From NCBI GenBank assembly GCA_003142475.1, contig PLMK01000035.1, positions 1 to 37,281 on the forward strand: a stretch of DNA of 37,281 nucleotides, in the 5' to 3' direction. A program made the position numbers and the translations under genes. The stretch's first letter is position 1, and each line of letters begins with the position of its first letter. The notes beneath the pieces are model-generated. The model had not been told where the DNA came from. It did not search any database and saw nothing but the letters and a program-made list of their open reading frames with translations. This DNA comes from Ignavibacteriota bacterium (GTDB taxonomy: Bacteria > Bacteroidota > Ignavibacteria > UBA10030). Below, piece by piece: positions 27,681-31,793 of this stretch.

Positions 27681-29084
27681 TTACACTCGGATCTTCATCC
27701 CAAAAGAAAACGAAACAGTTTGAAAGCTTTTCGGTATAAATACCATGCCGAAGTTATCTGTTGCAAAATCTAGACTAAAGTTGTGAAGATCGAGTCCAAA
27801 CCCGAACGCCCACCGTACTTTATCCCCACCACCGAATGCTAATCCGGTTCTCAGCGGTAAAACAGGAAATACACGATACTCAGTTCCGAGTGAAAATCGC
27901 GGTTTGGTTGTATTACCAAGAGACTCGTTGAACCCCTGAAGATAATCGAAAGCCAGAATTAACTTACCTGGTAGAAATTTTAGGACAGGGATATCCGATG
28001 CTTCCGTTGCAAATCCCAGCCTCAATGCTGTTGGCAGATATGTATCAAATGCCTCACCTGGACGTGTCTTCCCTTTAAATATGCTTTTCAAAGTATCTTC
28101 GAGATTGTTGGTAATACTTGTGATATTAATCGCTCCACTACCATAGCTTTCTATAACGTTTTTATCCCAAGTGATTTTGCCAATATCAGTAACACTCAAA
28201 GCAACTCGCACTCCATTAATCAATTCTCCCGAAAGTCCAATATCAAAGCCTGTCCCCTTACCTACTGGATCTGGAAATAGAGCAAACGATGTTTCTGAGT
28301 TCTCGTTCATAAAATCTACACCGGTATGAGTAGTCAGAAAATCGATATTGCCCTTTAAGATATATTGCGTCGGATTAGCAGGATCAGGATAATTTCCAAA
28401 AGAAGATTTCTGACTTATAGGTTGCGATATTCCGTACCCTCGAAAAAATTTTAATCCGATTCCAGCATAGAGGTCTTTGAAAAACTTTATTTCGACCGGT
28501 AACTTCCGTCCATATGATAAATTGTATTCACAATACCACCATGCAGAAGCTTTTGTGCCGTCGAACATGTACACTGATCCGGCTGAATCCAATCCAAAAG
28601 CAGCCATTCGGAAAAAATCTTTTGAGAGTGTTATTGTAGCTCCGACGTGTTCTATAATTGCAAATCCAATTCCCCCAAATAGGGGATGCTGGAAGGATGC
28701 TCCGAGCATCGCTTCCGCTTTAACTCGAGTCTTTGGCAACTCAGGCATCTGAGAAAGGATTTTATCCATATCAGCGGACTCAAGACGCTTCGCCCAACGT
28801 TTACCAACTGAATCAACGCCGGTGAAATATTCTTTGTAAAGTCCATAATCTAATAATTCTGTACTCACGCGTATGCCGGTTGGTGCAAGATTTAAGTTAA
28901 AATTTCCCTGGTCCGGTATAGCGATGTTAGCCGGATTGATACCAAGAGCATCCACACCCCGTGAAACTGCATTCATCGTTCTTCCCATTCCTACACCGCG
29001 AATATTTGAAAGATCCCCTGCTATAACCTTATGAAGAACGACTGAAAAAAGAACGATAGAGAGAAGAGTGAGATTCGATTTCAT
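27681..29084 (-). CDS. Predicted outer-membrane beta-barrel protein (DUF5723/PorV-like)
   Basis: A 467-residue exported protein with a signal peptide (about 1-22, ending VIA). The N-terminal RGVGMGRTMNAVSRGVDALG and INPANIA blocks resemble openings of Bacteroidota barrel families (DUF5723 and PorV-like). Many amphipathic strands follow, and the C-terminal strand SFSFGMKIRV suits insertion by the Bam machinery. Function unknown. The ATG overlaps the upstream lipoprotein's stop (ATGA), preceded by a strong GGGAGG, so the two are translationally coupled and probably work together. Confidence 0.82.
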   Translation of the reverse strand: MKSNLTLLSIVLFSVVLHKVIAGDLSNIRGVGMGRTMNAVSRGVDALGINPANIAIPDQGNFNLNLAPTGIRVSTELLDYGLYKEYFTGVDSVGKRWAKRLESADMDKILSQMPELPKTRVKAEAMLGASFQHPLFGGIGFAIIEHVGATITLSKDFFRMAAFGLDSAGSVYMFDGTKASAWWYCEYNLSYGRKLPVEIKFFKDLYAGIGLKFFRGYGISQPISQKSSFGNYPDPANPTQYILKGNIDFLTTHTGVDFMNENSETSFALFPDPVGKGTGFDIGLSGELINGVRVALSVTDIGKITWDKNVIESYGSGAINITSITNNLEDTLKSIFKGKTRPGEAFDTYLPTALRLGFATEASDIPVLKFLPGKLILAFDYLQGFNESLGNTTKPRFSLGTEYRVFPVLPLRTGLAFGGGDKVRWAFGFGLDLHNFSLDFATDNFGMVFIPKSFQTVSFSFGMKIRV

Positions 29085-29803
29085 TTACTGTCCTCCCTTT
29101 GCGGTTTGTTTATTGTATAACGTGCTTTTAGGGAAGTACGGTTTCGGATGTAATCATCTCCCTTAAATTTTACTGATTTTAGCTCATTCCCTAGATTAAA
29201 AAAAAGTTTAACAAATATTGAATCAGCTTGAGGTATTATATCAATTTGTTCACCTGTAAAAATCATTGCAACATTCGAAATCCTCGGATTGATTGCAAAA
29301 CCATTAATATCAACTGCCGGAGCTTTGATAACAGAATCCTTGGAGATTTCAAGCAATGTATCGCTATGTGTCCCTGCCGAATCCCATTTGAGAAAACGTA
29401 ATTGCAATGACATTGTAATAGGAATTCGATTTGTGAATTCAAAGTTCATAGTCCCATCTATTGCAGAAATATTTTTAAGCGTCTTAGAAAATCCTTTTAC
29501 TCCAGATTCTCCCAAAGCTACCTGTCGTGGCAGGTTTGAAATAGTGTCTATTGGATTCGGTCCTTTAGTGAATATAATACTATAGGTACTATCTGCGGGG
29601 TCAAACTGGAACACGGAGGTTTTCTTAGCAAATTCGCTAAAGTACTGTGTTGTGTCTAAAACTGGGATATTTACTTGAGTGTCAAATGTTGGTGCAACAG
29701 GTTCGGACGGTAATTCAATACAATTAATCGATATAACTAACATACCCATGAGTAACATGCAAACAGCAGCATTTATTCCTTTGTGTAAAAGTGTTTGTTT
29801 CAT
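29081..29803 (-). CDS. Probable lipoprotein coupled to the outer-membrane barrel
   Basis: A 240-residue exported protein. The hydrophobic signal (about 10-27) ends in SINC with Cys28, an atypical lipobox because Asn sits at -1, so lipidation is likely but not certain. The mature part is beta-rich, with repeated FEFTNRIPIT-like strands, and resembles no family I can name. I chose ATG 29801-29803: the longer frame to 29866 would start inside the promoter at 29851-29879. Partner of the barrel gene that follows. Confidence 0.8.
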   Translation of the reverse strand: MKQTLLHKGINAAVCMLLMGMLVISINCIELPSEPVAPTFDTQVNIPVLDTTQYFSEFAKKTSVFQFDPADSTYSIIFTKGPNPIDTISNLPRQVALGESGVKGFSKTLKNISAIDGTMNFEFTNRIPITMSLQLRFLKWDSAGTHSDTLLEISKDSVIKAPAVDINGFAINPRISNVAMIFTGEQIDIIPQADSIFVKLFFNLGNELKSVKFKGDDYIRNRTSLKARYTINKPQREDSK

Positions 29804-29828
29804 ATTTGTCCTTAACTTTTCATGTTGT

Positions 29829-29852
29829 TTCTTATAAAGAAACCTATAAGAA
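29829..29852. promoter_or_regulatory. Perfect palindrome at the transcript start of the lipoprotein/barrel operon
   Basis: TTCTTATA (29829-29836), 8-base spacer, TATAAGAA (29845-29852). It overlaps the downstream edge of the -10 box and the predicted start site, where a repressor operator would sit; in RNA it could form a 5' hairpin instead. Confidence 0.5.
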
Positions 29853-29879
29853 TATACCGACCCCATGAAGCATTGTCAA
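29851..29879 (-). promoter_or_regulatory. Near-consensus sigma-70 promoter of the lipoprotein/barrel operon
   Basis: Reading leftwards, a perfect TTGACA (29874-29879), exactly 17 bases, then TATATT (29851-29856, five of six consensus). Transcription would begin near 29844, about 40 bases before the ATG at 29803. Confidence 0.78.
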
Positions 29880-29996: not shown

Positions 29997-30323
29997 TCAG
30001 TGAAATTTTTCCTCTTTGGTAGGTGGTTGGAAACCGAATGTCGGTCCGCCAGATGATTCGCCTATAAGTTTTATTTCACCGAATTTTTTCTCAAATTTAT
30101 CAATATTGTCATGAAGTGCATTTAAAAGCATTTTTGCATGCTGCGGAGTCATAACAATGCGGGCATGAACCCTTGCCTTTGGAATTCCTGGAAGCACCCG
30201 CGTAAAATCAATAACAAATTCCGCCGGTGAGTGTGTGATAATTGCAAGATTGGAGTAGATACCCTCCGCTTCTTTCTCTCCAAGCTCGATATTAATTTGC
30301 TGCTGAACTGGTTGATCAGTCAT
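29997..30323 (-). CDS. DUF3467 family protein
   Basis: A 108-residue soluble protein of the DUF3467 family. Diagnostic features are the INIELGEKEAEGIYSNLA opening, the HSPAEFVIDF segment, the RIVMTPQHAKMLLNAL block and the Gly/Pro-rich tail. The family's function is not known to me; members are widespread as small single-domain proteins. It lies 36 bases after the TPR lipoprotein and is followed by its own terminator, suggesting a two-gene transcript. Confidence 0.9.
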   Translation of the reverse strand: MTDQPVQQQINIELGEKEAEGIYSNLAIITHSPAEFVIDFTRVLPGIPKARVHARIVMTPQHAKMLLNALHDNIDKFEKKFGEIKLIGESSGGPTFGFQPPTKEEKFH

Positions 30324-30359: not shown

Positions 30360-31745
30360 TCACTTGCCGGCCTTGCGTATTTTATCAGCCTCATCAAGTG
30401 CTTTCGTTGCCTTATCTGTTTGACCAAGAAGTGCATAGATGGTGCCAAGTGTTTCCCAAATTCTTGCGTCATCTTTCTTAATCTCTGTCACCTTTAGCAT
30501 CCATGGCAATGCTGCCTGGAATTTTGTCTTATACTCTTCACTCTCATCTCCTTTTTCCTGTGAAGCTTTCTTCATTTTTACGCCCCAATTATAATAGGTT
30601 GCACCAATATCATAAATTGCATCGCTAAAATTTGGGTCTATTTTTAATGCTTCGTTAAATTCTGCAATCGCGCCATCGTAGTCATTGACAGATCTATAGA
30701 GAAAACCAAGAATGTAATGATTCGTCTTGTTGCCAGGTTCGTTGTCAACCGCAAGTTTGAAAGCTTTGGTCGCCTCAACAGTGCGGTTGGCTTCATAATA
30801 TGCCTGTAAAAGTAAATTTAAATTTTCATTGTCTTTTGGATCTATTCCTTTAATTATCTCAAACACACCTACGGCTTTATTAAAATCGTCAATTGCTTCA
30901 AAATATTTTGTAGAATCAATTTTCAAATCGTATAATTTTTCGATCTTCCTATTGACAACTCGTTCACCGTCAATGGTAAAAGTCATCGTATATTTATTAT
31001 AGATCCAGTCTTCCTTCTTTGGATTCTTTTTGTCTTTCTTTTGACTGTCCGGATTTCCGAACGCCTGTATTACATCACTTTTATAGCTTCCTTTATCGAT
31101 TTCTTTAAGATTTTTCTGAAGTTTGAGATTATCTACATTAGCCGTTTTGAACTGTTCTTTTTTCTCTAAACCCTGTTGAACATATATTCTTCCAACAGAT
31201 TTATAAATATCTTTATTATGATCCATTTCCCATACTTTAGTTAGACTCAAAACCTCATTTGCAATATCACCTTTTACTTTATATGCATCAGCGAGATAGA
31301 TGTACGTGGTAGAGGTGTCCGGCCATATAATACATGCAGTTTTATAATCTGCAATTGCTTTATCGTAGAATTCGAGAGAGTCACTGCTTGCACGATTTTT
31401 ATTAATAACCCCGCTGTTAATATATTGTACCCAAAAATGTCCACGAAGTGCACGGATATCATTCGAATATACATTGGAGATCTTTTCTGATTCCTTAAAA
31501 GCTTGATTCATCCCTGCAAAGTCATTTAACTGCAATCCTCGGAGACGACCAAGACGAAACCATGCTTCATAATTTGCTGGATTATTTTGAACTTCTTTTT
31601 CATATAATTTTGCTGCTTCAGGGAAATTATTATTCTGTTCTTGCACTTTTGCGCCTGTGAAATCTGGAGAACCGCATTGAAATCCTTGAGTCATAAATCC
31701 AGCAAGGATCAATGCAAAAAACAAAGAGAATAAATTGCTTTTCAT
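30360..31745 (-). CDS. TPR lipoprotein with a BamE/SmpA-like insertion
   Basis: A 461-residue predicted lipoprotein: signal to Cys24 (lipobox GFQC), then TPR units in two blocks (about 30-190 and 280-455). Between them, at about 214-268, is a segment with the BamE/SmpA pattern: IDKGSYKSDVIQAFGNPD, a charged loop, DWIYNKY, then FTIDGERV. The combination suggests an envelope-assembly scaffold; that is inference. I chose ATG 31743-31745 because AAAGGA lies nine bases upstream, whereas the ATG at 31754 directly abuts it. Confidence 0.85.
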   Translation of the reverse strand: MKSNLFSLFFALILAGFMTQGFQCGSPDFTGAKVQEQNNNFPEAAKLYEKEVQNNPANYEAWFRLGRLRGLQLNDFAGMNQAFKESEKISNVYSNDIRALRGHFWVQYINSGVINKNRASSDSLEFYDKAIADYKTACIIWPDTSTTYIYLADAYKVKGDIANEVLSLTKVWEMDHNKDIYKSVGRIYVQQGLEKKEQFKTANVDNLKLQKNLKEIDKGSYKSDVIQAFGNPDSQKKDKKNPKKEDWIYNKYTMTFTIDGERVVNRKIEKLYDLKIDSTKYFEAIDDFNKAVGVFEIIKGIDPKDNENLNLLLQAYYEANRTVEATKAFKLAVDNEPGNKTNHYILGFLYRSVNDYDGAIAEFNEALKIDPNFSDAIYDIGATYYNWGVKMKKASQEKGDESEEYKTKFQAALPWMLKVTEIKKDDARIWETLGTIYALLGQTDKATKALDEADKIRKAGK

Positions 31746-31793
31746 GGATAGCATCCTTTATATTGATCTTTTAGTTAAATATTGTGCGAAAAA

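Follow-up and report, generated by a model that had tools for sequence, protein, structure and literature searches.

The window, a stretch of 37,281 nucleotides from an Ignavibacteriota bacterium, encodes on its complementary strand a TPR protein of 461 aa with an embedded BamE-like domain (30360..31745, -), and we consider it probable, at roughly 0.58, that this protein is an envelope adaptor in which a TPR scaffold carries a BamE/BLIP-superfamily domain as a second docking site. We infer that the protein would be exported and perhaps tethered via a conserved N-terminal Cys, that its two TPR stacks would form the scaffold with the domain set in a scaffold loop, and that the TPR surface would hold one partner or client while a second envelope protein would be bound by the BamE-like domain, the outer membrane on its periplasmic side being the most plausible site. 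Computation shows the TPRs, the conserved insert with its predicted fold, a family link from it to stand-alone BamE-like putative lipoproteins, and related domains elsewhere on this scaffold.

The longer ORF of the gene (30360-31754, -) gives 464 aa. The second ATG (31745), which had also been taken as the gene end in the original prediction, is the better start because most orthologues align from it and AAAGGA lies 8 nt 5′ of it. The N-terminus is signal-peptide-like and ends in a conserved GFQC (Cys27; 31674..31745, -), a possible atypical lipobox. Two TPR blocks follow, recognised for the N-terminal one (residues 30-205; 31140..31667, -) by TPR models and AlphaFold2, and entered for the C-terminal one (residues 282-463; 30366..30911, -) via a conserved IDST; the non-TPR unit between them spans residues 207-281. 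Several TPR models exceed their curated cut-offs (for example TPR_2 with 63.3 against 27 bits) and match both flanks of the insert, as had been proposed, with the best stretches at 35-71, 346-389 and 412-456. By our own pairing of the predicted helices, H181-205 and H282-304 make up the fifth pair, and the insert separates them. The motifs first read in the insert are found in the translation (GSYKSDVIQAFGNPD, WIY and FTIDGERV), and its LGxP-type motif DVIQAFGNPD occupies residues 227-236 (31047..31076, -). Searches found the TPR protein family in 39 of 41 genomes and, with a limit of E<=1e-50, in 105 of the 197 genomes of the class.

AlphaFold2 prediction of the whole window protein with 37 orthologues gave a mean pLDDT of 91.5 and a pTM of 0.79, with the insert elements H207-218, H225-232, E237-240, E247-252, E257-262 and E265-271, which were unchanged when the insert was predicted alone (pLDDT 76.2). 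Two helices followed by a small antiparallel sheet is the arrangement of the BamE-like (BLIP-type) superfamily. Foldseek of the insert against the PDB gave no match at E < 0.001 (best 0.075), the top ranks being OsmE, a B. anthracis SCP-domain protein, gonococcal BamE, a BLIP-like protein and a DUF4309 protein. The top row of VIA-align was the S. mutans BLIP-like structure 3d4e (Z 8.0, rmsd 3.5, 78 aligned); also aligned were OsmE 4dm5_A (Z 7.2, rmsd 3.4, 66 aligned), chain E of the E. coli BAM complex 9mgg (Z 6.8, rmsd 4.5, 69 aligned), DUF4309 4ygt (Z 6.6, rmsd 5.4, 77 aligned) and BLIP 3e2l_D (Z 6.1, rmsd 2.4, 64 aligned), where a Z below 8 may reflect merely a common arrangement. A Z of about 7 by itself proves little, and it is the coherence of the list that carries the weight: 25 of the best 30 rows are titled BAM/BamE, BLIP or BLIP-like, OsmE or DUF4309, and the remaining five are 4ifa, 4h0a, 9uu1, 9vnj and 5ayw, of which 5ayw_E is a BAM entry. 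Residues 207-271 (30942..31136, -), two helices and four short strands, are predicted from these models to form a BamE/BLIP/OsmE-type domain, and the original prediction thereby passes its own refuting condition, which was that the insert would show no BamE-like fold. A fold search with the whole model returned TPR and similar helical-repeat proteins, BamE not being among the 50 matches listed.

The same list bears on the reading that the domain is an inhibitor or immunity module which blocks an envelope enzyme or toxin, like BLIP or the BamE-like immunity proteins. The best structural row is BLIP-like and BLIP itself aligns, the domain has been gained and lost often, and BamE-like immunity proteins are described in PMC12419801. 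Yet type A, the form of the insert seen in the window, is kept across whole families, unlike fast-evolving immunity genes, its constant neighbour is a DUF3467 protein, and a toxin-like protein was found in none of the seven window proteins scanned, so that we regard this role as very unlikely.

The insert goes beyond a chance resemblance. Of the 37 full-length orthologues in the first alignment, 26 have it as a conserved unit (81-92 aa as excised) and 11 are without it, the contig-end fragments L044 and L045 having been excluded from this count. Across these 26 sequences of two families the G of LGxP and the D-S of IDST are invariant, and seven further columns are conserved at >=90%. Against PF04355 the window insert reaches 13.6 bits, below the gathering score of 23.2, and 12.8 bits in the genome search, where two other places of the source genome, each with an in-frame stop, outscore it (15 and 14 bits). 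When all 26 inserts were compared with Pfam at E<=10, BamE matched 8 (best 0.0063), DUF4309 5, DUF3862 4 (best 0.0013) and DUF3192 1, and six unrelated families also matched one or two members each. No BamE model of NCBIfam matched the insert at E<=0.1, the only hit being ETEC_3214_dom (E 0.0022, 17.4 bits; cut-off 35), and the insert profile found no convincing match among PDB sequences (best E 1.2). At E<=0.01 the profile of the 26 inserts (A3) matched 54 of the 197 class genomes; 41 of these matches fall in TPR-family ORFs and 13 lie elsewhere. Five of these 13 were fetched, and each contains a 136-141-aa putative lipoprotein that matches PF04355 (E<=5.5e-4; two above the cut-off) as well as the NCBIfam BamE model (all five below its cut-off); with an HMM built from 51 type-A inserts they reach 22-29 bits. 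On searching 395 phylum genomes with the insert family, 26 matched at E<=0.001, 4 of them outside the class. The proposed profile check therefore came out in two parts, in that the insert stays below the PF04355 cut-off but the profile of its family reaches stand-alone proteins which match PF04355, and at the level of sequence we take the link as real but indirect.

Other BamE-like stretches were seen along the way. L188-L192 and L206 (families f11, f18, f19 and f21) are stand-alone BamE-like putative lipoproteins with a motif like RGMSGAEVAEALGSPN. The 605-aa ORF L204 (G432) has two BamE-like units before a C-terminal domain, scores 26.5 bits with the insert HMM and looks like a membrane M56-type peptidase, these domain names having been given by eye.

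Downstream of the TPR gene and on the same strand lies a DUF3467 protein (29997..30323, -), and every one of the 26 context loci has a member of the same family there; since L035 and L052 are apparently one contig, at most 25 of these loci are independent. DUF3467, named by Pfam as a family of unknown function, has no PDB relative at E<=1, and among the literature matches listed the term occurs once, in a single paper. The following 261-aa putative lipoprotein (29081..29866, -) resembles a ~700-aa protein that lies near DUF3467 in many relatives, but solely at the two ends of the latter: it corresponds to residues 5-137 and 600-736 of the 736-aa orthologue at L051, the middle ~460 residues being missing. 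Next is a DUF5723 protein, a probable outer-membrane barrel (27681..29084, -), a neighbour in many relatives, with all 13 aligned homologues matching DUF5723. The ~700-aa protein and the barrel come next in many of the 21 loci examined, and a sigma/anti-sigma pair is present upstream in five (L034, L035, L036, L051 and L052).

Of 85 orthologues, 83 have the N-terminal Cys at the same alignment position, preceded by Q in 71 cases, E in 7, G in 4 (L010, L133, L137 and L138) and S in 1. The usual lipobox has a small residue before the Cys. Because Q or E at this position (78 of 85) misfits it, lipidation of the TPR protein appears doubtful from its sequence, and we call the window protein, a lipoprotein in the original prediction, a possible lipoprotein only. 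L139 (G160), a carrier of the insert at another place, is without this otherwise conserved Cys. In the alignment of the ~700-aa neighbour (A5; rows L035, L036, L039-L043, L046-L049, L051 and L054) the residue before the conserved Cys is Q, N, H or S, much as it is mostly Q in the TPR protein, which perhaps points to a relaxed lipobox in this lineage.

The window protein had also been suggested to contain a BamD-like part. Like BamD (YfiO, TIGR03302), which has an N-terminal cysteine, it combines TPRs with an N-terminal Cys, but TIGR03302 does not match it at E<=1. A separate BamD is above the cut-off in all 41 genomes searched, in the source genome at G000:C41:2628-3308 (122.6 bits), and the BamD-like assignment was rejected on both grounds. 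A BamA-like ORF of 803 aa with four POTRA lies at G000:C26. BamE proper binds POTRA5 of BamA and BamD. As a Bam accessory, the window protein would dock with its BamE-like domain on BamA/BamD, hold unfolded barrels or BamD with its TPRs and so replace BamE. The predicted BamE-type fold of the insert fits this proposal, and PF04355 is above the cut-off in only 1 of the 41 genomes, which agrees with the absence of BamE from Bacteroidota reported in PMC12578637, where pulldown and bioinformatics suggest that these bacteria lack BamC and BamE. In PMC13067283, BamE is reported to have arisen within proteobacteria. A DUF5723 barrel gene also lies close by, and PMC12611786 describes F. johnsoniae BamG as a barrel of the FadL family. 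Nevertheless, the DUF5723 barrel and the ~700-aa protein gave no BamG or BamH chain among PDB sequences, either as single sequences or as profiles, although they may still be such subunits; the locus is on C18 while the BamA-like gene and BamD are on C26 and C41; many relatives are without the domain; and the term TPR is absent from the main text of both Bacteroidota BAM papers. Proteins with no Bam role have this fold too, which is found in OsmE, BLIP, DUF4309 proteins and described immunity proteins, and therefore the alternative Bam accessory of the original prediction is one of several possible roles, and in our judgement an unlikely one.

The envelope adaptor reading draws on the occurrence of related domains at four places of one scaffold: within the fifth helix pair (type A), within the third (type B), between the fourth and fifth (type C) and at the C-terminus. 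Type A, as in the window, covers residues 206-281 and is found in families f1, f5, f12, f13 and f20 (51 rows of the first tree). The type-B insert of L139 (G160) lies between the helices of the third pair, and in its family of 31 genomes none of the 30 others, the congener G234 included, matches across the insert. The type-C insert of L132 (G210) lies between the fourth and fifth pairs; of 11 congeners searched, 10 match only both flanks of the insert and 1 gave no match. Relative to G216 it is an in-frame 201-bp insertion, the DNA identity being 88% over 1161 aligned columns. On searching for a donor, G210 was found to hold only the insert itself and no match was seen in G216, G168 or G122. 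L216 (G134) has an insert at the type-C place and is the single further carrier among 49 additional loci; the other 48 are without the domain, a figure that is not a rate, since two-block matches were the main source of these loci and some are repeats. The C-terminal case is L239 (G691), which carries the domain at its very end, unlike its congener L232 (G151).

These domains are related to each other. Those of L216 and L139 align with a Smith-Waterman score of 102, reached by 0 of 2000 shuffles, and an HMM built from this pair gives L132 26.9 bits, a score that 0 of 2000 shuffles reached (the best gave 8.1). It is only because of this HMM that the L132 domain is accepted, since alone 5 of 1000 shuffles reach its real score, with an HHalign E of 0.14 and 5.0 bits at full length. 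HHalign of the B/C domains (L139, L216, L132) against type A gave E 4.7e-8 at a probability of 94.9%. The B/C profile matches L239 at 2.9e-15 and the type-A inserts of G002 at 1.5e-4, G016 at 0.004 and G022 at 0.043, the last two sitting among unrelated-looking hits. The Pfam family DUF7738 weakly matches L139 (0.057), L216 (0.0024) and L239 (0.0043), with L132 matching no family, and it also matches two type-A inserts, L122 and L089. None of the B, C and C-terminal domains matches PF04355 (E<=10 for L139 and L132, E<=0.1 for L216 and L239), and because of the missing direct match we hold the adaptor explanation slightly less firmly. Deep relatives have a different insert near the same place (type D; L133-L138, families f11, f15 and f19), which on visual inspection resembles BamE and may contain an LGxP motif. 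HHalign gave E 0.0021 for them but a probability of 5%, the real score was reached by 149 of 1000 shuffles for L133, 6 of 1000 for L137 and 0 of 1000 for L134, and at full length an insert-free control, L040, equalled L137 and outscored L134 with its 4.8 bits. As these tests gave no clear answer, type D was left out of the recurrence claim.

On a scaffold tree built without the type-A columns (134 rows, with some genes present twice as they were fetched twice), the presence and absence of the domain needs at least 8 changes. With the type-D rows as root, a single clade of 59 rows (support 92), of which 55 are insert-free, takes in every carrier of the B, C and C-terminal forms; these forms occur in four genomes (C in two). 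Within it L139 groups with the insert-free L195 (support 99), L239 with L232 (support 100) and L132 with insert-free G216 rows (support 72) in a six-row group of support 100, and L216 branches singly at the base of a 53-row group (support 84). Type A on the first tree requires 5 changes, 1 of them forced by starred branches. The L132 insert sits on an 848-kb contig of G210, and assembly error is an unlikely source of the four cases. These frequent changes and the many insert-free orthologues would also be expected if the insert were inert in its TPR loop, or did no more than stabilise it, and were gained and lost neutrally. We consider that improbable, given that G, D and S are invariant and seven columns are conserved at >=90% across 26 sequences of two families, and that the domains at the testable placements are related to each other and not random. 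The recurrence suggests instead that the task of the scaffold is compatible with a BamE-like docking site and periodically favours it; it does not imply BamA as the partner. A bolder form of the adaptor explanation, in which a portable BamE-like docking module was captured repeatedly at four positions because the TPR protein needs one for its task, perhaps at the outer-membrane assembly machine of bacteria without BamE, and in which the protein would stand in for BamE as a subunit or belong to a new class of factors for envelope assembly, is one to which we attach a decidedly low likelihood.

Compared with known systems, the insert resembles BamE (SmpA/OmlA, PF04355) in its helix pair followed by an antiparallel sheet and in its LGxP-type and W-x-Y motifs, which are motifs of BamE. 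Unlike BamE, a stand-alone outer-membrane lipoprotein of ~12 kDa, it is embedded in a TPR protein of 461 aa, and it stays below the gathering score (13.6 against 23.2 bits). BLIP, DUF4309, DUF3862, DUF7738 and OsmE belong to the BamE-like superfamily; the predicted fold is the same for BLIP, DUF4309 and OsmE, where structures exist, and the DUF4309, DUF3862 and DUF7738 models weakly match individual inserts, whereas the matched structures of BLIP, OsmE and DUF4309 are separate proteins and not inserts of a TPR scaffold. In contrast to a BepA-type M48 + TPR protease, the window protein is without a protease domain. An M48-TPR protein with a 607-aa open frame (L245, G527) shows by eye a BamE-like stretch near its C-terminus (local HMM 17.2 bits; in Pfam only DUF7738, 0.0053), with a corresponding match at L246 (G172), and we take L245 to resemble BepA with a BamE part.

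Among the matches listed from the open-licence PMC literature, no description of a TPR protein with a BamE-like insert was found. Each component is known by itself; the architecture, like the fact that it has been assembled repeatedly, is new with respect to the literature searched. Related domains at different positions of the scaffold, together with relatives that are without them, form a natural experiment much like repeated gene fusions, and the recurrent pairing suggests that the TPR and BamE-like functions belong together. The near-identical proteins of G210 and G216, with and without the domain, are suited to direct comparison, and the TPR protein is a concrete candidate for an envelope factor in a Bacteroidota-line group from which BamE has been reported missing.
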